Below are positions 13,254-26,991 of a stretch of DNA of 34,550 nucleotides, in pieces; position 1 is the stretch's first letter; each line of letters starts with the position of its first letter. Location of the stretch: assembly GCA_007121015.1 (NCBI GenBank), contig SKMN01000070.1, positions 1-34,550 of the forward strand. The letters run 5' to 3'. Source of the DNA: Coriobacteriia bacterium. GTDB taxonomy: Bacteria; Actinomycetota; Coriobacteriia; Anaerosomatales; SLCP01. The notes below the pieces were generated by a model. That model saw nothing but the letters and a program-made list of their open reading frames with translations. It did not search any database and was not told the DNA's origin. Both the position numbers and the translations under genes were made by a program.

Positions 13254-14432
13254 CTAGATCGCCTCCTCGGTCCGGATCTCGAGCGGTTTGGGCGCAGGCG
13301 CGCCGGTGTCGGGCTGCGGCAGCGGCTCGAGCGGCGGGACGAGCGTGAAGCGGCGCTCGACGACCCATCGCTTGAGCTCGTCTGCGATGCGGCGTGCGGT
13401 CGTGAGCGAGGAGATGGGTCCGGTAGGCACCTGCTTGCCCTCGATCTCGATGGCACCGCTACGCAGCTGCGCATACGTGACGCGCCCGAGCGCTGGGCGT
13501 GAGCGGCGCGCCACGCCGTAGTCGAAGACGGTGGCGGTCAGGTCGGCGTCGGTGAGCGCGAGGGTGGCGGCGAGATCCTCGTCGAGCACGGGGATCGGGA
13601 TGCCGATGCCCACGAACGCCGAGACACCGTAACCGGTGAAGGTCGCTGCGCTGAAGAACTCGTGGCTTGCGGATTTCAGGTCGGCGATCACGGCGATCGT
13701 GCCGGCGGGCGCGACGGGGACGCCGTTGTCATCGCGCGCCTGGTCGGGGTTGTGCTGCGTGCCCTGCCACGCGACGTAGCCGGGCGCACCGGCCACGAAG
13801 CACCGCGTCCCCACCCCGATCGTACGGTAGAGCGGGTCGTTGAGCAGAGGCGAGAGCGCTCCTGCCGAGCAGTACGTCGCGTTGCCGAGCCGCGGCAGCA
13901 GTGGGCCGAGATAGGTGTTGATGAGCCGGTCGCCTGAGTTAACCGCCACCGCGTAGTTCTGGTAGGCGTTGCGTGGGTTGAAGAGGTAGGCCTGGTTGAG
14001 ATCGTCGAGCGTCACGTGCGTGTCGATCTCGATGCGCGGGTAGCAGTCGGTGCCCGGCCCGCTCGCGCGCAGACGCACCGCACGCCCGCGGATGAGGTCC
14101 TCGATGACGTGCGCGCCGCCGTATTCGATGCCGCGCGTGCGGCTCGGCTCGGTAGCGCCGAGGTACGTGTCGACCGCGGCGAGCCCTCCTGAGGCCGGCA
14201 CGTCGTTCATCGTGATCTCGCCCATCTTGATGGGCGGGTCCGAGTGGCCGAAGTTGAAGAACGCCCCGCTCGAGCACATCGGACCGAACGTCCCAGTGGT
14301 CACGACGTCGACGCGCTTCGCGGCGTGCGCGACACCTTCATCAGCGGCGAGCGCGGCGAACTCCTCGGCGGTCATCACCACCGCCTCGCCGGTCGCGATC
14401 TTGGCGTTGATCTCCTCGAAGCTCTTGGCCAC
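13254..14432 (-). CDS. DUF39 homocysteine biosynthesis protein (aspartate semialdehyde sulfurtransferase type)
   Basis: This protein of 392 aa belongs to the DUF39 family, whose methanogen members insert sulfur into aspartate semialdehyde to give homocysteine. It shows VVTTGTFGPMCSSGAFFNFG with Cys53 and GPGTDCYPRIEI with Cys130, candidates for the family's persulfide-forming cysteines, and NPRNAYQNYAVAVN. The start is GTG 14432 with GGAGGT nine bases upstream; the ATG at 14582 in the same frame is inside the T-box leader (its specifier codon). It is first in the operon with the NIL-ferredoxin, metH, metV and metF. A direct-sulfide homocysteine route is therefore inferred. Confidence 0.9.
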   Translation of the reverse strand: MAKSFEEINAKIATGEAVVMTAEEFAALAADEGVAHAAKRVDVVTTGTFGPMCSSGAFFNFGHSDPPIKMGEITMNDVPASGGLAAVDTYLGATEPSRTRGIEYGGAHVIEDLIRGRAVRLRASGPGTDCYPRIEIDTHVTLDDLNQAYLFNPRNAYQNYAVAVNSGDRLINTYLGPLLPRLGNATYCSAGALSPLLNDPLYRTIGVGTRCFVAGAPGYVAWQGTQHNPDQARDDNGVPVAPAGTIAVIADLKSASHEFFSAATFTGYGVSAFVGIGIPIPVLDEDLAATLALTDADLTATVFDYGVARRSRPALGRVTYAQLRSGAIEIEGKQVPTGPISSLTTARRIADELKRWVVERRFTLVPPLEPLPQPDTGAPAPKPLEIRTEEAI

Positions 14433-14441
14433 AGCCCTTGC

Positions 14442-14681
14442 ACCTCCATTAACGTACGGACGCCCTCCACCACTGACTCCTCGTGTCAGGGCGAAAGGCG
14501 TCTCGGTAGAGCCTTGCGCGGTACCACCCGACTTCACCCGCGTCGCGCGCGCCGCCGTTCCTCCGGAAGCCTCCGGGGCCATGTTCCGCAGCTTGTCAGG
14601 CGCCGGTTCGCAGCCGCCCCGGCTCTCTGAGGGCCCTACCGGGCCGCGTACTCATCCCCATCACAGGCGTTTGTTCTGTTG
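14442..14681 (-). promoter_or_regulatory. T-box riboswitch, methionine (AUG) specifier
   Basis: In minus sense the leader has stem I features: GATGAGTACG with the AGUA box at 14657-14650, the distal CAGAGAGCCGGGG, and GAAC followed by specifier ATG at 14582-14580, then GCCCCGGAG. The T-box GGGTGGTACCGCG is at 14529-14517. Its UGGU bulge pairs with the ACCA end of a tRNA with discriminator A, as tRNA-Met has. A long stem follows (GACGCC...GGCGTC, about 18 bp with one bulge, roughly 14491-14455) and ends 10 bases before the GGAGG. Uncharged tRNA-Met should raise expression of the homocysteine/methionine operon. Confidence 0.9.
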
Positions 14682-14825: not shown

Positions 14826-15848
14826 CTACGGGACCCCGCCATCCACCCCATCAAGCAGCTGGAACGCCCGCGCCCACGCGCTCGGCGAGAGCGCCCCGTG
14901 ACGGCCCGCGCCGCCCACGACTACCATCCGTCCCTCGAAGACCGTCCCGTCGGCACCGTGCACCGCGAGCGGGGGCGGCGGCACCGGCTCCCACCGCAGC
15001 TCCTCGGCGCGCGTGTCGAGCATCCAATGGCGGTCTATGACGCCGCCACCGAGCGTACTGGCGTCCTCACCGCCGATGACGTAGATGCGCCCGCCTAAGA
15101 CACCCTCGGCAGCGCCGCTCGTCGGCTCCGGCAGAGGCGGGCCGGGTCCCCAGCGGTCCGTATCGGGGTCGTAGATATCGACGCGCGCCGTGTTCTGCGG
15201 CCCCCTCCCGCCGATGGCCCAGATGCGCTCTCCGGCCACGACCACCGAGAGGTGGTCCCGCATCTCGGGGATCGGCGCTGCGGCCGCCCACGTATCGAGT
15301 GCGGGATCGAACACGTATGAGTCGGCGGTCTCGCCGTGCCCGCCCACGACGTACAGTCGCCCGCCGAACTCGACCATGCGATGCCCGTAGCGCTCCTCGG
15401 GCAGCGGCGGCATAGCGTACCACTCGGTGTCGCCGGGCTCCCATCGCCAGACGTCGCGACTGCCCGCCCACGGGGGCGCGAGCCCCTCGGCACCGCCGGA
15501 GAGCACGACCGCGCCGTCGAGCGCCGCGGCGGACGCGTGGTGGCGCGGCGCCGGCAACGAAGGTCCGCGGCTCCACGCTCCGCTCGCCGAGTCGTACGCG
15601 AACACGTCGTCGGCCACCCGAGCGAGGCCCGACAGGCCGGAGAGCACGACGAGCACCTCGGTGCCGTCGTCGCGGGTCACCGACACCGTCGCCAACTCGC
15701 CGAAGGCCATCGGAAGTTCGGGGCCGAGCGTCCATTCGTCGCGCTCCTGCGGGGCAGGCGCGGTAGCTAGCAACGCCACCACGACGAGCGCCGCCCCCAC
15801 GACGAGCGCCCCCACGACGACCGCTATCACGCGGAGCCAGTGCGGCAT
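14826..15848 (-). CDS. Membrane-anchored kelch-repeat protein
   Basis: This 340-aa protein has one N-terminal membrane anchor (LRVIAVVVGALVVGAALVVVA) and then an extracytoplasmic beta-propeller. Kelch signatures recur about every 45-50 residues: VVLSGGAEGL, YVVGGHGETA, WAIGGRGPQN, YVIGGEDAST and VVVGGAGRHG, each with a following W or Y and a PLP/PIPE turn. That is about six blades. No catalytic motif is visible, so a protein-binding or glycan-binding scaffold is likely. ATG 15848 has GGGAGGACTT upstream. It is the last gene on the minus strand after the zinc-ribbon cluster, 75 bases behind it. Joint transcription is possible but a hairpin lies between. Confidence 0.85.
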   Translation of the reverse strand: MPHWLRVIAVVVGALVVGAALVVVALLATAPAPQERDEWTLGPELPMAFGELATVSVTRDDGTEVLVVLSGLSGLARVADDVFAYDSASGAWSRGPSLPAPRHHASAAALDGAVVLSGGAEGLAPPWAGSRDVWRWEPGDTEWYAMPPLPEERYGHRMVEFGGRLYVVGGHGETADSYVFDPALDTWAAAAPIPEMRDHLSVVVAGERIWAIGGRGPQNTARVDIYDPDTDRWGPGPPLPEPTSGAAEGVLGGRIYVIGGEDASTLGGGVIDRHWMLDTRAEELRWEPVPPPPLAVHGADGTVFEGRMVVVGGAGRHGALSPSAWARAFQLLDGVDGGVP

Positions 15849-15913
15849 AAGTCCTCCCTCGACCCGATGTGCCGACACCTAGTCTCTACCGCATCCCCAC
15901 ACGTTCGACGCAC

Positions 15914-15935
15914 GGCGAGGGCGTCAGTCCTCGCC
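15914..15935 (-). terminator. Short hairpin overlapping the stop of the peptidase-like gene
   Basis: GGCGAGG (15914-15920) and CCTCGCC (15929-15935) form a 7-bp stem with an 8-base loop that includes the stop codon at 15924. No U-tract follows. It is a weak candidate for partial termination before the kelch gene. Confidence 0.35.
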
Positions 15936-18104
15936 CCTCCTGCGTCGTGGCCAGAGGAGAACCGCCACCCCGGCGAGCACGAGGAGAGCCGCGCCAACGA
16001 GGAGTGCCGTGAACTGGACGGCGGCTCCCAGCCCCGAGAACGGTATTCCCCGGTCACCACCGCTGCCAACGCCTTCCTGCAACGACACGACCTCGTCGAC
16101 CTCCCCATCGGAGTCACGGTCGACGGCGAGCGTCACGCCTGCCGTCGGAAGGTCGTCCCAGTCATCGGCGACGATCGTGTGCGTCTCGCCGCTGCCGATC
16201 GTCTGCTCGCCAGCGACGAAGAGCGCCCCGTCGTCGACCGCGAAAACCGGCACGTAGGTGCGCTCGCCAGCGCTGGCGTTGACGACGACCATTCCCTCGT
16301 CACCCTCGGATGCCGCAATGGAGAAGACGTCTCCAGCGACCAGTGCCGTGTCCTCGGTCCCCATCGTGCGAACGCTCTCGCCGACCGGGCGATAGAGAGT
16401 GAGGTCCACGTCGTCCCTGTCCGCCCCGGCGGCGTACTCGAGGACACCGCTATCGGCATCGACGCCCAGCGTGTCGCTCCCCGCCTCGCCGAAGACCTGC
16501 GCCACCACTATCCCCGCCTCGTCGGACACTGCGTAGGAGTATCCACCCTCCTCTGCCAATGCCGCAGTGCGCCTATAGTCGGCTCCCTCGGGGTGGAAGA
16601 ACACCCGCGCCACCGGTTCGGCCCAGATGTCGGGGTAGAAGAACTCGACATCGTCGATCTCCTCGTAGACTTCGCCATCGGCGAACCCGAACCGCTCGCC
16701 GGACTCGTTCTCGAGCAGTGGTTCGGCGGTGATGGACACCGAGGTGAACGGAGCCAACAGGCGCTGCACAAGACTCGGACGCTCCTCGGGGACGATGCTC
16801 GCCCCTCCGGGGGTGTCGTTCATGAGATCGACGATATCCGATGTAGGGACGTACCGTAGCGGTCCACCTTCTGCGGACGACCACGTCCGCGCCGCCACGC
16901 CCTCGAACTCGCCGTCACGCACAAGGTCGTACCGCCACGACCAAGCCGTGGTATCGATATAGACTGGGCGCGCCTGACCGGGATGGTTGTTGTCCCACAC
17001 CCAGATGACCGCCTCTCCGTCGGCAGGCCCTGCGATTGCAAACGGCGTGATGGCGTGACCGGCGCCACCGGGAGCACTGCGGATCACCAGGACCGGGATG
17101 TCGCGATCGCCGCTCTCGAACACGCCTTTCAGATGCCGGAATGTAGCCTCGGTCCCAACGCGACGGTGGTAACCGTTCAACCGCTGCGTGAGCTGGTAGC
17201 GCTGTATGAACTCGCGCACGACCTGGGGCTGCATGAGCCCGGATTCGCGGCCGTCGTGGCTGACGCGGACACCGAACACGGTCGCGGGTGAGCCGGGGAA
17301 TCCCGCCGCGTCGTTCGCGCCGTACCAGACGGTGCTGGCTGAGGAAGCGAAGCCCGAGCACATCCCGCCCTCGAACAAACCGCTGCCGGACGCGACGATG
17401 GAGTAGTCGAGACGCGATAACAGGCTGCCACCGAAGACGTATTTCCACACCCGCCAGTCATCGCTCTGGTCGGTGTCGCTGCCATTGCGAAACGCGTACC
17501 CATCCAGCGAGGGGCGGAACCCTGAGTCAGCCGCGTAGTCGTGATCGGGAACTCCCGTCCCCGGGACCTCGCCGGGGGTGCGGCCCGTGCGTGCAGTGAC
17601 CGTGATGCGTGCAAGCCCGCTCGAGCCCACACCATCGATCTCGGTCCTCGCCGCTATACTGCTCACGCCACGGTAGAGTACGCTGGCAGGAAGCGCCAAC
17701 TCCCACTCCCCCGTCTCCTCGTCGACGAGCGCAGTGCCTTCCGAGTACGGACGTGCGGTCGCGGCCGAAGCCGTGCGGTATCCGTCCGGCATCACGTACA
17801 CGCGGACACGTGCGATCGCGTCCGGGTCTTCCGACTTGTCGGAAGCCTTCACCGACCACCCTTTGACGACGAGGTCGTCGGAATCGAACGCGCTTCCGTC
17901 TTCGGGCTCGATAATCAACGGTATCCCGACCGTGTGAGCCGGCAGAGAGCCGATGGTGCGCAGCCAGTTCTCGTAATCTGTCTTCGTCTTGTTGACGGAC
18001 TCCTGCACCTGCTGAGTGCCGCCACCGACGCATGCGAGCGCGAACAGAAGAAGTAGGACAAGGGACGCCACGGCCCATGCGGTCCTGTTCGAGCGCGACC
18101 TCAT
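15924..18104 (-). CDS. Lipoprotein with putative papain-like peptidase domain and C-terminal membrane anchor
   Basis: This protein of 726 aa is not a known family to me. A signal peptide ends FALAC (Cys25), and residues 75-200 look like beta-sandwich domains. The central region has GGMCSGFASSAS (Cys249), GGAGHAITPFAI (His350) and VWVWDNNHPG (Asp371/Asn372), spaced as in clan CA cysteine peptidases (Cys, His, Asp/Asn); the Trp-Asp-Asn-Asn-His segment is typical of secreted C39-like or papain-like folds. More beta-rich sequence follows, with a DRDSDGEVDE calcium-loop-like stretch, then a membrane segment (AALLVLAGVAVLLW) and RRRR. ATG 18104 overlaps the upstream stop (ATGA). Activity is inference. 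Confidence 0.75.
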   Translation of the reverse strand: MRSRSNRTAWAVASLVLLLLFALACVGGGTQQVQESVNKTKTDYENWLRTIGSLPAHTVGIPLIIEPEDGSAFDSDDLVVKGWSVKASDKSEDPDAIARVRVYVMPDGYRTASAATARPYSEGTALVDEETGEWELALPASVLYRGVSSIAARTEIDGVGSSGLARITVTARTGRTPGEVPGTGVPDHDYAADSGFRPSLDGYAFRNGSDTDQSDDWRVWKYVFGGSLLSRLDYSIVASGSGLFEGGMCSGFASSASTVWYGANDAAGFPGSPATVFGVRVSHDGRESGLMQPQVVREFIQRYQLTQRLNGYHRRVGTEATFRHLKGVFESGDRDIPVLVIRSAPGGAGHAITPFAIAGPADGEAVIWVWDNNHPGQARPVYIDTTAWSWRYDLVRDGEFEGVAARTWSSAEGGPLRYVPTSDIVDLMNDTPGGASIVPEERPSLVQRLLAPFTSVSITAEPLLENESGERFGFADGEVYEEIDDVEFFYPDIWAEPVARVFFHPEGADYRRTAALAEEGGYSYAVSDEAGIVVAQVFGEAGSDTLGVDADSGVLEYAAGADRDDVDLTLYRPVGESVRTMGTEDTALVAGDVFSIAASEGDEGMVVVNASAGERTYVPVFAVDDGALFVAGEQTIGSGETHTIVADDWDDLPTAGVTLAVDRDSDGEVDEVVSLQEGVGSGGDRGIPFSGLGAAVQFTALLVGAALLVLAGVAVLLWPRRRRGED

Positions 18105-19576
18105 CGCTTCGACCTGTTCGTACGCCACGGATATGCGACCAGGCCGAAGGCGAACACGCCGAGCGCCACGCCGAGCGCCCAGTCGATGCCCGTTCTCCAC
18201 CCTTCGATGAGTTCGGGTGCGAGCGCTTCGGTCCGCGTACTCGCGCGGACGACCGACTCCGCGAAGAGCCGGTCCGCGTCACCTAGACCCACTCGCCACT
18301 CGGTGGTGCCGTCACGCGCTCCAAGCAGTGCCCCGGGCAACACGACCGACGACGAGAACACCACGTCCCGGCTGCGCGACTCCATCTCTTCGTAGACCCG
18401 TCCGTCCTCGTCGTAGACACCTTGCTCGGTCTCGAGTGAAGCGGTGTCGAGTAAACCGGCGAACACGAAGTGAGTGCCGTCACCCATAGGAATGGCCTGA
18501 AGGTACGACCAGCTCTCACCGGCGCGGTGCGGCACGTTGTTGAACTCGGCGCACGAGTCGAAAGCCCTTGTTATCCGCATCGTGCCTTCTCCGCGGGCCA
18601 CCGTCACGCCCTGCTCTTCGAGTTCGGCTGTCCACGAGTCGATAGATGCCTGGGCATTCGGCAGACCGAGGATCTCCTGCATCTGCTCTTCGCCCAACTC
18701 GATCTCGGTGACGACACTCCCCGATCCGTCCTGGCTCACAATCGTCATGGTCTTGACATCGCACCCTGTCAACACGAGCCCGAGCACGAGGGCGCCGGCC
18801 ACCCCTGCTGCGGGGAGCAACCTCCTGCGCCGCATGCGATCGATGCCGCCTCGGACACGCACGAAGACCGAGGCCAGGAAGAACCCACCCGAGACGAGGA
18901 GCGTCTGCCATGCGAGTCTGAGAAGATCGTCCTCCCGCTCCTGGGCGTGCTGGGAGAGCGCGAGGACGATCATGTCGGTCCCGGTCGGCGAGACGAAGCC
19001 GATCGCCGTGACCGCCTGGCCTACGCTCAGGTCGTTGCGGAGCGCAGGGTAGACGGCACCGATCACCTCGGTGCCTTCACCGATGCCCAGCGCGAGCTCG
19101 CGGCCATCCTCGCGCAGTCCGGCGAGGCGACCATCGACCCGCACGAGCCGGTCCTGGTACCGGTCCGGATGAGCTCCGAGTTGTACGACAGTGGCCGTCA
19201 CGACCCGCTCGTTGAGCGGAGGGGGTTGTACGAGGCGTTCCGTGTGCCACTCGGAGACGGTCGGCACGAACTCGACCGGCCCACCCTCCTCCGGTGCGAT
19301 GAGCGCTCTGAGCGCGGGCAACCCCGATCCGATGCCCACCACGATCGCCACACCCGCAGCGAACGCGAGCAGCCACCTCACGATCCGCCTTCGCCTTGAC
19401 GCTTGGGGGCGCGGCAGGTCGACTGTGCCCGCTTCACCGGTGGCGCCTCCGCCGCCGACCGCGACTTCAACGGCTGTGCCGCTCGCAGCCTCCGGCGCAA
19501 CCATGGTCTTCCCGCAGGACCCGCAGAACTGGTTCAGCTCCGGGTTCCGCGCATGACAGTGCGGACAGAGCGCCAC
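18101..19576 (-). CDS. Zinc-ribbon membrane protein fused to a lipoprotein-like domain
   Basis: This protein has 491 aa and is multidomain. It opens with a zinc ribbon (Cys4, Cys7, Cys18, Cys21) and a Gly/Ala linker, then a membrane segment (VRWLLAFAAGVAIVVGIGSG). An OB-like domain follows (VVTATVVQLGAHPDRYQDRLVRVDGR), then a second membrane segment. Next is an internal stretch, RRRLLPAAGVAGALVLGLVLTGCDV, that looks exactly like a lipoprotein signal with Cys272. After it comes a domain resembling LppM/DUF3153 (IVSQDGSGSVVTEIEL) and a final membrane segment. GTG 19576 is chosen because it puts the ribbon at the same position as in the paralogue at 21758. It looks like a gene fusion. Confidence 0.75.
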   Translation of the reverse strand: MALCPHCHARNPELNQFCGSCGKTMVAPEAASGTAVEVAVGGGGATGEAGTVDLPRPQASRRRRIVRWLLAFAAGVAIVVGIGSGLPALRALIAPEEGGPVEFVPTVSEWHTERLVQPPPLNERVVTATVVQLGAHPDRYQDRLVRVDGRLAGLREDGRELALGIGEGTEVIGAVYPALRNDLSVGQAVTAIGFVSPTGTDMIVLALSQHAQEREDDLLRLAWQTLLVSGGFFLASVFVRVRGGIDRMRRRRLLPAAGVAGALVLGLVLTGCDVKTMTIVSQDGSGSVVTEIELGEEQMQEILGLPNAQASIDSWTAELEEQGVTVARGEGTMRITRAFDSCAEFNNVPHRAGESWSYLQAIPMGDGTHFVFAGLLDTASLETEQGVYDEDGRVYEEMESRSRDVVFSSSVVLPGALLGARDGTTEWRVGLGDADRLFAESVVRASTRTEALAPELIEGWRTGIDWALGVALGVFAFGLVAYPWRTNRSKR

Positions 19577-19610
19577 GTCCCCCCCTACCAGTCGATACGT
19601 CCCGGGCTCG

Positions 19611-20975
19611 TCACCGGCGCGTCCCACACTCGGTGCAAAACGCGGCCGCCTCCCCCATCGCGTTTCCGCACTCCCGGCATGCATCCCGCGGGGCCTCCGT
19701 GCCACTCACTTGGCTGGCGGGAGCGTTCACTCCATCACCTTCTAGCGCCACCGCGAACTCCTCGGCCGGAGGCAAGAGCGGTTCGACGACCAGTGCCGGG
19801 ACCTTGCTGCGAACGCGCCGCCGGATGCGGCGCACCGAGAGCGTCACGCCGAGGAGCAGCAAGCCGAGCAGACCACCTCCCGAGCCGAGCGCGAGTGGCC
19901 AGTTGGGTACCCGCGACGATGTCCGGACCTCATCGGGCAGGCGAGTCTCGGTGCCCCCGAAGTGCCACGACGTCTCGGCGTCCGTGTCCACGAGCCCGGG
20001 CATGCGGATGGCGAGGATGATGTTCGCATCGGCGAGGGCCGACTCGTACGACGCCATATCGGCCGAGGTCGGCGAGCCCACGCCACCGCACGGTAAGCAC
20101 GCGTTGGAGCCTTGACCGTCGCAGGCGTGGCACGAGATCGAGGCGAACCCGGAACACTCGGAACACTCGACCTCTCCTTCGCCGTCACACCTGCGGCACT
20201 CGATCTCCCCGGTGTCATCGCACGACCAGCAGCCCAGGCGTCCGTCACCGCTGCAGCTGTAGCAGTCCCTGCGCCCGGACCCTCCGCACGACCAACACGA
20301 GTCTCCCCAGCTGTCGGTACCGCTGCCGCTGCAACTGAAGCACTCGCGCCAGCCACGGGAGTCGCACGAGTCACACTCGCGATACCCCGCACCCTCGCAG
20401 CTCTGGCACGTGTGGGAGCCCTGAGCTTCGCACTCGTCGCACTCGCGGACGCCTTCACCTGCGCATGCCGGACACGTGAGCGAGCCGGAGCGGTCGCACT
20501 CCTCACAGTCGTGACGGCCGTCCCCCTCGCACTCGAGACAGTGCGGCGGCCGGAAGTCGATCTCCGGCAAACGGTACGCGACCTCGACGGACTTGAAGAA
20601 CAGGTAGTCCTGCACGACGATGTCGAGCTTCGACCGGTCGAGGACGACCGGCGCGAACCCGATCTCGTCTGACACCGAATCCAGGATCACGGTGAGCAGT
20701 TCGGCTTCAGCCTCTGGAAGCGCGGAGGGATCGTCGAACGTGCGAGAGTACTCGGCGGTCGCGCTCGAGTCCTGTGTCCATCCCGGCGCACTGGCGTCGA
20801 CCTTCGCACCGCGAACGGAAACCCGCTCCTCGACCGACCCGTCAGACGCGAGATCGAGCTGGATGTCCACCCCCACACCAGAGCCCGAACATCCCGCCAT
20901 CATGACAGCGACGGCGGTGACGAACGTGATCGCCGATGCACGCCCCACCCTCCTGGACAGCCGTTCCGCACGCAT
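19611..20975 (-). CDS. Lipoprotein with 14-unit CxxC (DnaJ-like) cysteine array, membrane segment and zinc ribbon
   Basis: This 454-aa protein has a lipobox ending MAGC (Cys29), then an LppM-like domain (VDIQLDLASDGSVEE). Residues 146-296 hold fourteen CxxC units whose first Cys lie at 146, 157, 168, 179, 190, 201, 212, 227, 238, 249, 260, 271, 282 and 293. That is an 11-residue period with one 15-residue step; most read CxxCxGxG-like, as in the DnaJ zinc finger, which has only four. After a membrane segment (361-380) and a basic stretch comes a cytoplasmic C4 ribbon (Cys433, 436, 447, 450). The array is predicted outside the membrane. ATG 20975 has GGAGG upstream. Function unknown; metal binding or thiol chemistry is possible. 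Confidence 0.85.
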   Translation of the reverse strand: MRAERLSRRVGRASAITFVTAVAVMMAGCSGSGVGVDIQLDLASDGSVEERVSVRGAKVDASAPGWTQDSSATAEYSRTFDDPSALPEAEAELLTVILDSVSDEIGFAPVVLDRSKLDIVVQDYLFFKSVEVAYRLPEIDFRPPHCLECEGDGRHDCEECDRSGSLTCPACAGEGVRECDECEAQGSHTCQSCEGAGYRECDSCDSRGWRECFSCSGSGTDSWGDSCWSCGGSGRRDCYSCSGDGRLGCWSCDDTGEIECRRCDGEGEVECSECSGFASISCHACDGQGSNACLPCGGVGSPTSADMASYESALADANIILAIRMPGLVDTDAETSWHFGGTETRLPDEVRTSSRVPNWPLALGSGGGLLGLLLLGVTLSVRRIRRRVRSKVPALVVEPLLPPAEEFAVALEGDGVNAPASQVSGTEAPRDACRECGNAMGEAAAFCTECGTRR

Positions 20976-21029
20976 CAGGCCTCCACTCGTCGTTCGCGGG
21001 GGAGGTAGCTCCCGCCGTCGTGTCGCACG

Positions 21030-21758
21030 CTAGTAGCTGCCGTAGAAGCCTCGGCCTATGTCCCCGGGGATGTAGATGTCATCGGCGGCCCGGTAGAGAT
21101 TCTCGTACGCCCGCTCCGCACCCCTATCGCGCTGCTCGAAGTAGCGGACGATACGAGTATCGAGACGCTCTCCCGTCATCCCCGGCTCGACATCGTTGAC
21201 GAGTCTATCTGCGCCAGGAACGATATCGTCGAGGACGTAGGATGCGAACGCCTTCAGTCGGCGGTCGGCCGTCTTGTGCTCACCCGGCGCTCGCAGCGAG
21301 CGCAACCCCTTTGCGCCTCGCGAGGCCATCTTGATGCCGTCTTCGATGTCCTCGCGGTAGGTCGCGTACTCATCGGCTGTCATCTTCTCGTCGTACCCGT
21401 AGCTGTAGAGCCCGCTCACCCCTTGACCGATCAGGTTCAGGCCGTCAGATATCTCGAGGAGATGGTCTTCGGCCCTGGCCTCGTACGCCGAGGCACTCGC
21501 CGGCCTGAAGAACGCGATCCACGCGACGAGGAGCAGTGCGAGTGCGCCGACGCCAATCACGATCACCTTGTTGGAAGGCCGACGCACCCTCGCGATCGCC
21601 TCGGAGGTCTTCTTGACCGCAGCGGACATCTCGGTCGCAGCCTGCTGTGCAACCGGCTGTTGCGCGGGAGTCTCGGACTCCGCGAACCCGTGGCCGCACG
21701 ACTCGCAGAACTTGACGTTGTCCGCGTTCTCGTGCCCACACTCCGTACAGTACTTCAT
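21030..21758 (-). CDS. Zinc-ribbon, single-pass membrane protein with external helical domain
   Basis: This protein has 242 aa. It opens with a C4 zinc ribbon (Cys4, Cys7, Cys18, Cys21 in MKYCTECGHENADNVKFCES), a Gln/Ala linker and one membrane segment (VIVIGVGALALLLVAWIAFF). An extracytoplasmic helical domain rich in charged residues follows. That domain is clearly related to the one in the 22495-23583 protein: both share FF(R/K)PxS, YExxxED, SDG or ADG, LRAPxE and a LDD motif near the C-terminal third. ATG 21758 has AAAGGTGA upstream; the ATG five codons earlier lacks a ribosome binding site. Function unknown. Confidence 0.8.
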   Translation of the reverse strand: MKYCTECGHENADNVKFCESCGHGFAESETPAQQPVAQQAATEMSAAVKKTSEAIARVRRPSNKVIVIGVGALALLLVAWIAFFRPASASAYEARAEDHLLEISDGLNLIGQGVSGLYSYGYDEKMTADEYATYREDIEDGIKMASRGAKGLRSLRAPGEHKTADRRLKAFASYVLDDIVPGADRLVNDVEPGMTGERLDTRIVRYFEQRDRGAERAYENLYRAADDIYIPGDIGRGFYGSY

Positions 21759-21782
21759 GACGTCACCTTTCATCCGCTCGCA

Positions 21783-22466
21783 TCAAGAGACCATCGCCGA
21801 GCCGCACGAGCCACAGAAGCGCTCGCCAAGCTCGCCAAGGTGACCACAGGACGTGCAGGTCAGACCCTGCTCCGGGCCAGCCGATGCAGCCGTATCCGGC
21901 ACCAACGACGGATCGGAGTCGGTCTCCGCGAGCACGCTGCCCGGCTCGGGCTCCAGGCCATCATCGGGCGTCGGAGGGACACTCCGGTCTTCGACGGACT
22001 CGGGTGCCATTGCAGCATCCGGAAGCCCCACCTCGGTGCCGCATCGGCCACAGAACACGACATCGAGTCCGATCGCTGCGCCGCACGCCGGACAGGGTCG
22101 TGTCTCGATGTGCTCGACCGCCCTCCCACAACCGATGCAGAACTTAGCGTCGCTCGCGCTGAGCGTGCCACACGAGGCACACGTGTGCCGGTGCGCCTGG
22201 GTCCGCAATGCTTCGACCTGTCCTTCGAGCTTACCGAGGGCGATCTCCATCTCGCGTATCTGCTCGATGGCCGCACCGAACTCGGAACCGGAGAAGCGGT
22301 TCTCCCGGTGAGCCCTGTACACCGCTCTGCCGAGACCCGTGATGGCCTCGTCGCGCTGGCGCCCGACATGGTCCATCTGGGACTTCAGTCGCGAGAGCTC
22401 CAGCGCTCGCTCCGTCTGACTCAGACCCTTGACCACGCCCTCCTGCAACCTGTCGAACAACCCCAC
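21783..22466 (-). CDS. Soluble coiled-coil protein with three zinc ribbons
   Basis: This protein of 227 aa has no membrane segment. The first 90 residues form an amphipathic helical region beginning MGLFDRLQEGVVKGLSQTE, with LKSQMDHVGRQRDEAITGLG. Three C4 ribbons follow: CASCG...CIGCG, CPACG...CGRCG, and, after an acidic Pro/Asp-rich spacer, CTSCG...CGSCG at the C-terminus. It may be a cytoplasmic hub contacting the ribbons of its membrane neighbours. GTG 22466 has GGAG eight bases upstream. Function unknown; the role as hub is inference. Confidence 0.8.
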   Translation of the reverse strand: MGLFDRLQEGVVKGLSQTERALELSRLKSQMDHVGRQRDEAITGLGRAVYRAHRENRFSGSEFGAAIEQIREMEIALGKLEGQVEALRTQAHRHTCASCGTLSASDAKFCIGCGRAVEHIETRPCPACGAAIGLDVVFCGRCGTEVGLPDAAMAPESVEDRSVPPTPDDGLEPEPGSVLAETDSDPSLVPDTAASAGPEQGLTCTSCGHLGELGERFCGSCGSAMVS

Positions 22467-22494
22467 GGCTCAGTCTCCGTTCCGCCAAAGGCAA

Positions 22495-23583
22495 CTAGTC
22501 GAGCCAGTCGAGAACCGTGTATTCGCCCGTAGCGGCATCGACCTCGAACACATGCCATTCGTCTGCCGAGCTATCGAAGCTGACCCATCGCTCGCGCTCG
22601 ACCACCGCTCCAGTGGGCAGGGTCATAGCGACCGTCACATACACCTGGTCCCACGAGGTACCTGAGCGACTCGCGTAGTACGCGCTTATCCGATAGCGCC
22701 CGTGGCTCAAGTCCTGGCTCCCATGGTTCTCGAACACGATCGTCTCGCTCTGATCTCCCGGCCCGCCTGTGGCGTCGCGATCCTTGAGATTGCTGTAGGA
22801 GCTGCCGTTCACGTCTTTCACGAAAAGGTCGACGTCGACCGGCTGTTCCCAGGAAACGGTGACTGACACTGGCGACAGCGCAAGACCGGTCATCGGATCG
22901 CCGAGAAAGCCGAGGTGGAGCTCGTCCCGTATCGCGGAAAGACTCCTCTGCGCCGGTTCGGCCCTTTGCGCCGAACGTTCCGCGGCGCGCACGAGTCTGC
23001 GGCTGACCGCTTCGGCGTCATCGCCAGCGGACATCTCATTCATGGCAGCAGAGAACGAACTGAGTACGTCGTCGAGCATGAAACCCGCGAACCGCTCGAC
23101 ATCTCGGTGCACGCGCGCGTACTCCTCCGGGGCCCTCAAGGCGGCCAATACGACACTTGCCTCACGGGCCTGCCTCTCACCTTCGGCGAAGTCGCTTTGG
23201 TAGCGAGAGACGTCCGGTGTGGAAAGCCCGCCGCGCGCGTCGTTCACCAAGTCCCGGACAGCCTCGCCCATGATCCGGGTGCCATCGGCCATCTGGTCGA
23301 AGCCGTCCTCGACAGCCATCTCGTACTCGGCGACGGAGAGGGGCTTGAAGAAGAGGGTCCAGGCGGCGAACGCGGCGATTCCCACAATCACCAACGGGAT
23401 CGCGATCAGGAGAGCTGCGAGAGTCACGTTCTTCTTTGTGGGAGGACTCGTCTCTGGAGACTCGTCATGCCCAGCGGAGACAGGCAATTCCGATCCACAC
23501 GTACCACAGAACCGCTGATCACCAGTGCACGTCGTGCCACACGAAGGGCAGTTCAAGTCATCCTCCCCCACTTCGATTGACAA
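22495..23583 (-). CDS. Zinc-ribbon membrane protein with helical and C-terminal beta-sandwich domains
   Basis: This protein has 362 aa. A zinc ribbon lies at Cys12, Cys15, Cys26, Cys29, then a membrane segment (residues about 53-79, LAALLIAIPLVIVGIAAFAAW). A helical domain homologous to that of the 21030-21758 protein follows. A C-terminal beta-rich domain starts near VSVTVSWEQPVDVDLFVKDVNG and includes GDQSETIVFENHG, resembling secreted jelly-roll or PPC-like sandwich folds with an Asp-rich DVDLFVKD. The start is TTG 23583 with GGTAGG upstream, which is weaker than for other genes here. It is the first gene of the cluster. Confidence 0.78.
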   Translation of the reverse strand: MSIEVGEDDLNCPSCGTTCTGDQRFCGTCGSELPVSAGHDESPETSPPTKKNVTLAALLIAIPLVIVGIAAFAAWTLFFKPLSVAEYEMAVEDGFDQMADGTRIMGEAVRDLVNDARGGLSTPDVSRYQSDFAEGERQAREASVVLAALRAPEEYARVHRDVERFAGFMLDDVLSSFSAAMNEMSAGDDAEAVSRRLVRAAERSAQRAEPAQRSLSAIRDELHLGFLGDPMTGLALSPVSVTVSWEQPVDVDLFVKDVNGSSYSNLKDRDATGGPGDQSETIVFENHGSQDLSHGRYRISAYYASRSGTSWDQVYVTVAMTLPTGAVVERERWVSFDSSADEWHVFEVDAATGEYTVLDWLD

Positions 23584-25809: not shown

Positions 25810-25889
25810 CGAGGTGCCCTGACAGACCGTAGGGGTTGCTGGGAGCGATCGTTCCCAGTAACCCCTACGGTGACGCTGAGAGCACCTCG
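25810..25889. repeat. Intergenic palindromic element, copy 2
   Basis: A 19-bp stem, 25826-25844 (ACCGTAGGGGTTGCTGGGA) with 25853-25871, has one G-T pair and an 8-base loop, GCGATCGT. An outer stem, CGAGGTGC (25810-25817) with GCACCTCG (25882-25889), can form as well. The 46-base core matches copy 1 at 8486-8531 without gaps. It lies just downstream of the Nudix stop codon, so it could also act as its terminator. The remaining 25664-25809 has no gene. Confidence 0.75.
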
Positions 25890-25897
25890 CCGTCCGC

Positions 25898-26347
25898 CTA
25901 CCCGTTCATCGACGATGAACGAACAGCCGCAAGGATGTCGGCGTGATCGAAGGCCAGCGGGACCGGCACCGTACCGTCGTTGCCGAGCCGGTGCCACATC
26001 GCCTCGGCCGCGTCGTCCCCGCCGCACACCTCGACCAACTCGGTACCGACGTCGCCCCGGAACACCACGCTCACCGTCCACCCCCGAGGGTCGCGTCCCG
26101 GGTCGCCCCACGCCCCCACCTGCTCGAGTTCGCCCGCGAACGCCACGCAGGTCTCCTCGGCCAGTTCGCGCCGCGCCGCATCGACCAGCCGCTCTCCCTC
26201 GTCGACGAACCCGCCCGGCAGCGCCCACCACCCCGCGAACGGCTCGAACGCACGTCGCACGAGCAGCACCGAGCGCTCCTCTCTCGGACCGCCGAGGAGC
26301 ACGATATCGACCGAGACCGCAGGTCTGGGGAACTCGTACGTGTACAT
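25898..26347 (-). CDS. Nudix hydrolase
   Basis: This protein of 149 aa hydrolyses, by family, a nucleoside diphosphate linked to X. The Nudix box reads GFVDEGERLVDAARRELAEETCV, matching GX5EX7REUXEEXGU except that the late Gly is replaced by Cys. Preceding AFEPFAGWWALPGG and the start YEFPRPAVSVDIVLL are common in ADP-ribose or NAD-related members. ATG 26347 is chosen over the longer frame: TACACT lies exactly six bases upstream, suggesting a leaderless message. The substrate cannot be fixed; ADP-ribose pyrophosphatase-like or NrtR-like N-terminal domains are possible comparisons. Confidence 0.9.
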   Translation of the reverse strand: MYTYEFPRPAVSVDIVLLGGPREERSVLLVRRAFEPFAGWWALPGGFVDEGERLVDAARRELAEETCVAFAGELEQVGAWGDPGRDPRGWTVSVVFRGDVGTELVEVCGGDDAAEAMWHRLGNDGTVPVPLAFDHADILAAVRSSSMNG

Positions 26348-26428
26348 GCCGCAAGTGTACCCGATACCGACCGGCAGTCCACGCCCCACAACAAATCTAT
26401 AGTGCTTCTACCAGGGGTTTAGCTCGCC

Positions 26429-26480
26429 CGAGTGGTGGCAATATTACTCACGGGTCAGAGATATCTGACAATGTCATACT
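26429..26480 (+). promoter_or_regulatory. AT-rich control region upstream of hsp20
   Basis: The region is notably AT-rich for this genome. It contains CGAGT (26429-26433) and ACTCACG (26446-26452) as an imperfect dyad, the perfect small palindrome TGAC-AAT-GTCA (26466-26476) and a -10-like CATACT (26475-26480). No -35 box at proper spacing was found. The dyads do not match CIRCE or HAIR in spacing. Confidence 0.35.
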
Positions 26481-26529
26481 AAAATCTGCCAGGGAACAAG
26501 CGCCAGATAGGTCCAGGGAGGTGAACACC

Positions 26530-26991
26530 ATGGCAATCATGCGCTGGGACCCGTTCGGGGAGCTGCTGAGCATGCAGCGAGATACGGATCGGCTGCTCCG
26601 TAGGTTCGGTCTCGGGTCGGGCGGCAACGACGAGAGTGCACTATCGTGGCTGCCGCGCATCGACGTGAAGGCCGAGGGCGACGACATGGTCGTCTATGCG
26701 GAGCTGCCTGGCCTCGAAAGGGATGACATCGACGTCGAAGTGACCGAGGGCGTGCTCACCATAAAGGGCGAGCGCACGTCCGATTCCGAGAAGGAGGATG
26801 AGGGCTACATCATCCGGGAGCGCAGCTACGGCTCGTTCCACCGGTCGGTGGCGCTACCCGAGGGCATCGATCCCGGCTCCATCCACGCCGACTACACCGA
26901 CGGCGTGCTCGAGGTCCGCATCCCTAAGGCGGCCGAGGCGCTCACGCCAAAGACGCACCGCGTCGCACTGGGCGTCGGCTCGAAGGAGTGA
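26530..26991 (+). CDS. hsp20: Hsp20/alpha-crystallin small heat-shock protein
   Basis: This ATP-independent holdase of 153 aa begins MAIMRWDPFGELLSMQRDTDRLLRRFG, the usual N-terminal arm. The alpha-crystallin domain follows: PRIDVKAEGDDMVVYAELPGLERDDIDVEV, LTIKGER, ERSYGSFHRSVALPEGID and the closing A-DYTDGVLEVRIPK with the G-V-L motif. A short C-terminal tail lacks a clear I-x-I motif (the sequence reads THRVALGV). ATG 26530 has GGGAGGTGA upstream. It is a single-gene unit ended by a strong terminator. Confidence 0.95.
   Translation: MAIMRWDPFGELLSMQRDTDRLLRRFGLGSGGNDESALSWLPRIDVKAEGDDMVVYAELPGLERDDIDVEVTEGVLTIKGERTSDSEKEDEGYIIRERSYGSFHRSVALPEGIDPGSIHADYTDGVLEVRIPKAAEALTPKTHRVALGVGSKE

Follow-up and report, generated by a model that had tools for sequence, protein, structure and literature searches.

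A conserved cassette of six genes, g1 to g6, lies on the minus strand of a 34,550-nt stretch of DNA from a Coriobacteriia bacterium (contig SKMN01000070.1; the whole analysed stretch is called the window below). Four of the predicted proteins would carry a zinc ribbon on the cytoplasmic side of the membrane, a fifth appears to be a soluble protein with three such ribbons, and the sixth is a candidate surface protease whose catalytic domain differs between bacterial families. We propose, giving the idea not quite even weight, that g1 to g6 form one envelope complex, gathered through its cytoplasmic ribbons and displaying a protease held by lipid and transmembrane (TM) anchors. The predicted features on which this proposal draws are as follows.

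g1: 22495..23556, minus strand, N-terminal C4 zinc ribbon, one TM segment, external helical domain and C-terminal beta domain
g1 external helical domain: about 22906-23349, minus strand
g2: 21783..22466, minus strand, soluble, with a coiled-coil-type N terminus (22212-22466) and three C4 zinc ribbons, no TM segment
g3: 21030..21758, minus strand, N-terminal C4 zinc ribbon, one TM segment and external helical domain (21063-21509)
g4: 19611..20975, minus strand, lipobox signal, external domain split by a CxxC array, C-terminal TM segment and cytoplasmic C4 ribbon
g4 cysteine array: 20088..20540, minus strand, 14 CxxC units with a period of about 11 residues, DnaJ type, external
g5: 18101..19576, minus strand, N-terminal C4 ribbon, TM segment, small external domain, TM segment, internal lipobox, LppM-like domain and C-terminal TM segment
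g5 LppM-like domain: 18281..18763, minus strand, starting at the invariant internal lipobox Cys
g6: 15924..18104, minus strand, lipobox-like Cys signal, constant N part, papain-like middle and constant C part with a TM tail
g6 exchangeable catalytic domain: 16806..17528, minus strand, papain-like here, putative M6-type metalloprotease in genomes G043, G051 and G014

The strongest new fact, as judged from sequence comparison, is that g6 consists of constant ends around a swappable middle. When g6 was split in three and compared with its relatives, the N part matched at E values of 1e-19 to 1e-21, the C part matched those at loci L009 and L010 at about 1e-5, and the middle had zero similarity to the relatives. 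In the window's group the middle is papain-like, with C57, H158, D179 and N181 invariant in eight sequences from several families. Stand-alone secreted proteins of the same domain family occur elsewhere in the phylum; two of these, from other actinobacterial groups (L077:5924-7909 and L078:5344-7029), had no Pfam or NCBIfam name (L078 was scanned with Pfam only). The g6 proteins of the other group share an HExAH motif, invariant in three relatives, and two of the three matched the M6 metalloprotease model TIGR03296 (L010, E 3e-10; L009, E 8e-4; none for L008), both under the curated cut-off (40 bits for the M6 match, against 110.8 bits). Because two unrelated candidate proteases occupy one slot, extracellular proteolysis is the likely function of that slot and the predicted output of the cassette.

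The second line of evidence concerns g2. A profile of the g2 coil without its ribbons (family A11) found members in 32 of 199 genomes of the class, and within the order every match lay inside one of the cassettes described here or in a ribbon cluster of G054. Outside the order, open reading frames (ORFs) encoding a ribbon plus a TM segment were present within 5 kb of the g2-family gene at 10 of 20 loci (28 ORFs), compared with 1 of 20 control loci (1 ORF). The difference (Fisher one-sided p 0.0017) is a first estimate: fewer genomes supplied the controls than the test loci, contig ends truncated four of the test loci, and ORFs were counted crudely, in six frames. The ectodomains of these neighbors vary and include PASTA plus C-type lectin, DUF5050, DUF6273, leucine-rich repeat and RHS-like types. 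Because the family adjoins ribbon-anchored membrane proteins so much more often than the controls do, the association supports g2 as their cytoplasmic partner and makes ribbon-to-ribbon assembly plausible. In another family of the class, five ribbon-TM proteins surround a g2-family gene (L115, L128 and L129, in G184 and G176); the L115 cluster also holds an ABC transporter gene and, by eye, FHA and protein kinase genes.

The topology of the window's proteins is consistent with such an arrangement. Hydropathy and positive-inside charges beside the TM segments placed every single ribbon in the cytoplasm, N-terminally in g1, g3 and g5 and C-terminally in g4. A preliminary description of this DNA had claimed four membrane proteins with a cytoplasmic C4 ribbon, a soluble protein with three ribbons (g2), an external helical domain shared by two proteins and an external cysteine array, and all of these were borne out. 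g1 and g3 share a paralogous helical domain (26-28% identity); an F-BAR or apolipoprotein type for this domain was rejected, since the PDB profile matches had E values of at least 0.004 and were attributed to composition. The g4 array consists of repeated CxxCxGxG zinc-binding units of the DnaJ type, and its nearest matches in the PDB profile search were the DnaJ cysteine-rich domain 1exk (E 0.007) and BSD2 9ci1 (E 0.03). Two further outer domains fared less evenly. The beta-sandwich proposed for g1 found only a subthreshold PPC match to the C-terminal beta domain. The LppM-like domain proposed for g5 found support in fold, the best PDB match of the low-confidence g5 model being the Mycobacterium tuberculosis LppM domain 2NC8 (probability 0.85, E 0.02), but not in the Pfam scan, which gave no match. 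A fold search of the g5 model against viral models returned nothing below E 0.001. In that model the region past the internal lipobox is the better-predicted outer domain, with blocks of the predicted local distance difference test score (pLDDT) up to 76. The internal lipobox Cys before the LppM-like domain and the TM segment after it are kept in seven genomes; because of this conservation, the second half of g5 may be released by cleavage as a separate lipoprotein. Since LppM binds phosphatidylinositol mannoside, a mycobacterial glycolipid (review PMC6151718), binding of a lipid or glycolipid by g5 is a reasonable guess. A profile comparison of the g4 outer domain with the g5 LppM-like domain gave a long colinear alignment, but with a probability of only 2.4%.

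The density of ribbons at this locus is not a chance effect. A Zn_Ribbon_1 search of the 1.94-Mb genome gave 11 matches at E < 0.05, 7 of which lie within about 4 kb here, and clustering by chance was rejected (binomial, about 1e-12). One of the 11, L073:9045-9920 (G000:C54), is a stray ribbon-TM-helical paralogue of g3, with g4, g5 and g6 not nearby.

The gene set is conserved as a group. In G002, which belongs to a second genus of the same family, a Coriobacteriia metagenome-assembled genome (MAG) record (L007; JAUVXE010000015) carries g1 to g6 in identical order at 57-69% identity (57% for g1). All relatives with named records are Coriobacteriia or Actinobacteria MAGs; the order to which they belong may be Anaerosomatales/OPB41. 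The g6 gene is complete in G002, cut by the end of a contig in G003 (same family) and partially matched in G014, G043 and G051. One genus of another family carries a related version (L009 in G043, L010 in G051 and L042 in G065) with g4, g2, two to five helical ribbon proteins, another ribbon-TM protein, an Amidase_3 gene, g5 and g6, the last running past the contig end in L042. In a third family, parts of the cassette are spread over two contigs of G014 (L008 and L076). The order of g1 to g6 in G002 and the clustering of components in two other families agree with the claim of the preliminary description that the locus is one operon and one system. Homologues scattered singly across genomes without shared order, which that description had named as evidence against the claim, are not what was found, g4 and g5 occurring in the same genomes. 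Of the 69 genomes of the order, 7 had a full or half g5, and none was found elsewhere among 298 genomes drawn from the class. The g4 architecture accompanies it in 6 of the 7, the seventh having g5 alone in a cluster interrupted by contig ends. The g4 arrays have 6 CxxC units in L009, L010 and L042 compared with 14 in the window. In a phylum sample of 296 genomes, the g4 profile gave one further match, a 154-position stretch of a CxxC-rich protein in one genome (L111/L117). At that locus (L117:902-7511, G537, from another actinobacterial group), the CxxC-array protein adjoins, by eye, a MacB-like ABC transporter, ribbon proteins and FHA-like proteins. Separate lipoproteins that combine a KTSC-like part (by eye) with a long DnaJ-type CxxC array occur in genomes of the order that have no cassette (L028:1006-1851, L029:1063-1845 and L034:1495-2250).

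Gene content and order, topology signals, conservation, the g6 protease exchange and the linkage of the g2 family are what was observed, and from them we infer a physical assembly, ribbon-ribbon contact, a direction of signaling, a substrate and a trigger. In the proposed complex, g6 would be the working end, a lipid- and TM-anchored protease outside the membrane. Cytoplasmic g2 would gather the single-ribbon inner tails of g1, g3, g4 and g5 via its three ribbons. Of the outer domains, the helical ones (g1 and g3) and the LppM-like one (g5) would sense or bind lipids of the envelope or substrates, and the g4 array, of DnaJ type, would serve g6 by holding unfolded substrate. The likely job of such a complex would be the turnover or processing of cell surface proteins.

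Several observations weigh against this proposal. The g6 protein has no ribbon, and its membership in the complex rests on gene linkage. Half of the 20 g2-family loci had no ribbon-plus-TM neighbor within 5 kb. The Amidase_3 gene of the relatives is absent from both the window and the G002 versions. Few genomes have the cassette, and the search did not find it in the only other member of the genus (a genome 85% complete). The structure models were poor, with a mean pLDDT of 46.6 for g5 and 44.5 for the g6 middle, and a fold search with the latter returned no significant PDB match; nor was the model of the small external domain of g5 good enough to assign a fold. The papain-like lipoprotein of the preliminary description is thus upheld by the invariant order of Cys, His and Asp-Asn but not by a fold match.

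A wider form of the proposal would make the window one case of a general surface display platform in Coriobacteriia, in which a g2-family coiled-coil multi-ribbon protein gathers single-ribbon membrane proteins whose outer domains vary freely. The window would then be the protease-bearing form, with swappable papain-like and M6 units. We consider this possible, although with more doubt than belief.

Among functional alternatives, cell wall remodeling or maintenance survives best, although we think it unlikely. Here the protease and, in relatives, an N-acetylmuramoyl-L-alanine amidase would work jointly on peptidoglycan and on proteins bound to it, with the ribbon proteins reporting the state of the wall inward. 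The gene immediately upstream of g5 is Amidase_3 in L009, L010 and L042, and L008 has an Amidase_3 gene near g5-g6; the PASTA plus C-type lectin protein among the class-level g2 neighbors fits the same view. The amidase is, however, missing from the two versions named above, and Pfam and NCBIfam scans of g1 to g6 revealed no peptidoglycan-binding domain.

Two other explanations seem improbable, to a similar degree. One is an envelope stress sensor like the phage shock protein (PSP)/Lia system or TcaA, in which the ribbon-TM-ectodomain proteins would detect lipids or damage to the membrane and pass a signal to the inside, with the protease as output or processing step. PSP-linked operons do encode single-pass proteins with a zinc ribbon and a TM segment, ydjFGHL being one example (PMC11237479), the low-confidence g5 model gave an LppM fold match, and g1 and g3 gave weak matches to the TcaA model. 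Those matches, however, scored 15.8 bits (g1) and 18.1 bits (g3) against a cut-off of 550 bits and were limited to the ribbon-TM part. Moreover, when the seven proteins of the run (the six and the adjacent g7) were scanned with Pfam and NCBIfam models, no PspA, PspC, LiaI/LiaF or Toastrack domain came up, and the scans of the cassette showed no kinase or regulator gene. The other explanation dispenses with a complex: the genes would encode independent, cotranscribed surface proteins that share a cytoplasmic ribbon anchor as a topology or stability tag. In the class, it is indeed common for membrane proteins whose ectodomains are unrelated to have a ribbon anchor. The co-occurrence of g4 and g5, the retention of components across families and the presence of a soluble multi-ribbon g2 alongside ribbon-anchored membrane proteins argue against it.

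As a unit, the cassette is found at two different places in the chromosome. In 20 of 30 ntpD loci, tldE lies within 1.5 kb and is convergent with ntpD, mostly with nothing between them, that is, an empty site. G043, G051 and G065 carry the cassette immediately downstream of ntpD; in the two of these with a readable far side, G043 and G051, tldE/tldD come after it. Only helical proteins remain at the ntpD-tldE junction of G054 and G027, and only an accessory ribbon-TM protein was seen at that of G059 (within the 1.5 kb read). The window's family has its cassette at a different site; in G003 one contig bears the cassette, and the ntpD-tldE junction, on a different contig, is empty. We therefore think that the gene set was moved or rearranged as a group, or else was often lost, either of which fits a functional unit. 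A two-gene pair resembling HEPN/MNT (by eye) occupies the ntpD-tldE junction in G036 (L173:2191-2902), and because this junction holds the cassette in some genomes and that pair in another, it looks like an insertion hot spot. The patchy occurrence in 7 of 69 genomes, the two insertion sites and the swapped protease domain are typical of a biological conflict cassette (defense or antagonism) with an exchangeable effector, and the shared junction also speaks for one, but we judge this very unlikely, as the eight proteins compared with PADLOC models gave no match at 0.01, g5 was not found in a search of phages and plasmids, no immunity-type gene was seen, and the effector is predicted to be membrane anchored, not released.

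The run of seven minus-strand genes is flanked by a gene for CCA-tRNA nucleotidyltransferase (plus strand, start near 23.8 kb) and, on the other side, by an HcyBio gene; the seventh gene of the run and this flank are as follows.

g7: 14826..15848, minus strand, TM-anchored kelch propeller (Kelch match), adjacent to but outside the conserved cassette
HcyBio (homocysteine biosynthesis) gene: 13254-14582, flanking the g7 side

All seven genes were present where the preliminary description had put them, on one strand, but its seven-gene cluster reduces to the six-gene set: g7 was rejected as a member, being missing from the syntenic G002 cluster. Starts conserved among relatives, and so probable, are 23556 (g1), 21758 (g3), 19576 (g5), 18104 (g6) and 15848 (g7); that of g1 is a TTG at 23556, not 23583, and that of g5 is a GTG. 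With relative-supported starts, the gaps are 28 bases (g1/g2), 24 (g2/g3), 54 (g3/g4) and 34 (g4/g5), g5 and g6 overlap by 4 bases (ATGA), and 75 bases separate g6 from g7 and 243 bases g7 from HcyBio. The tight junctions claimed earlier are therefore real, as is the g5/g6 overlap, whereas a 95-base overlap of g4 and g5 was an artifact of start choice. No terminator-like site was seen in any junction of the g1-g7 run, and the sole promoter-like site of the stretch lies in the 243-base gap between g7 and HcyBio. Because the gaps range from -4 to 54 bases and the junctions have no terminator-like site, g1 to g6 look like one operon, to which g7 is joined less tightly. Elsewhere in the window (25870-26991), a 373-aa ORF has a C-terminal Hsp20 domain; its long N-terminal part may reflect a wrong start.

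Gram-positive genomes commonly encode zinc-ribbon-TM-ectodomain proteins, whose roles are mostly unexplained. A conserved ribbon cassette with a soluble multi-ribbon protein and a putative swappable surface protease suggests a testable role for such ribbons, as a cytoplasmic docking code for envelope complexes, and since the g2 family occurs in other Coriobacteriia families, a test in cultured organisms is probably feasible. We found no description of such a gene cluster in the papers searched, nor the combination in the libraries searched.

The nearest known systems are TcaA, YdjG of the Bacillus subtilis PSP-type ydjFGHL operon and the ZnR-PspC fusions, the latter two being ribbon-TM envelope proteins (PMC11237479). 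Like all three, the cassette proteins combine cytoplasmic ribbons, a TM segment and an ectodomain with a putative envelope role (for TcaA, per its NCBIfam model). Unlike them, the cassette has no PspA or regulator, its sequence match is confined to the ribbon-TM part, and it brings together four ribbon-tailed proteins, a multi-ribbon soluble partner and a protease. The second half of g5 resembles LppM (Rv2171) of M. tuberculosis in its lipobox, its putative LppM-type outer domain (by fold match) and its C-terminal TM segment, but it has no Pfam-level match to LppM, is fused after a half made of ribbon, TM segment, external domain and TM segment, and belongs to a multigene cassette. The g4 array is like the cysteine-rich domain of DnaJ and BSD2 in its CxxCxGxG repeats and profile matches; it differs in being built of tandem 11-residue units (6 or 14), extracytoplasmic, inserted in another domain and devoid of a J domain. 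The g6 relatives in L010 and L009 share the HExxH motif and a model match with the M6 metalloproteases (TIGR03296), yet they fall below the cut-off and are held between a lipobox and a TM tail common to the papain-like version. In a patescibacterial operon, structurally distinct peptidases have been reported to replace one another on a constant anchor in a comparable way (PMC12419801), although that operon has other genes and belongs to another phylum, and the window has no VanZ domain. The parts of the cassette are of known kinds; what appears to be new among ribbon-TM-ectodomain envelope systems is their combination.

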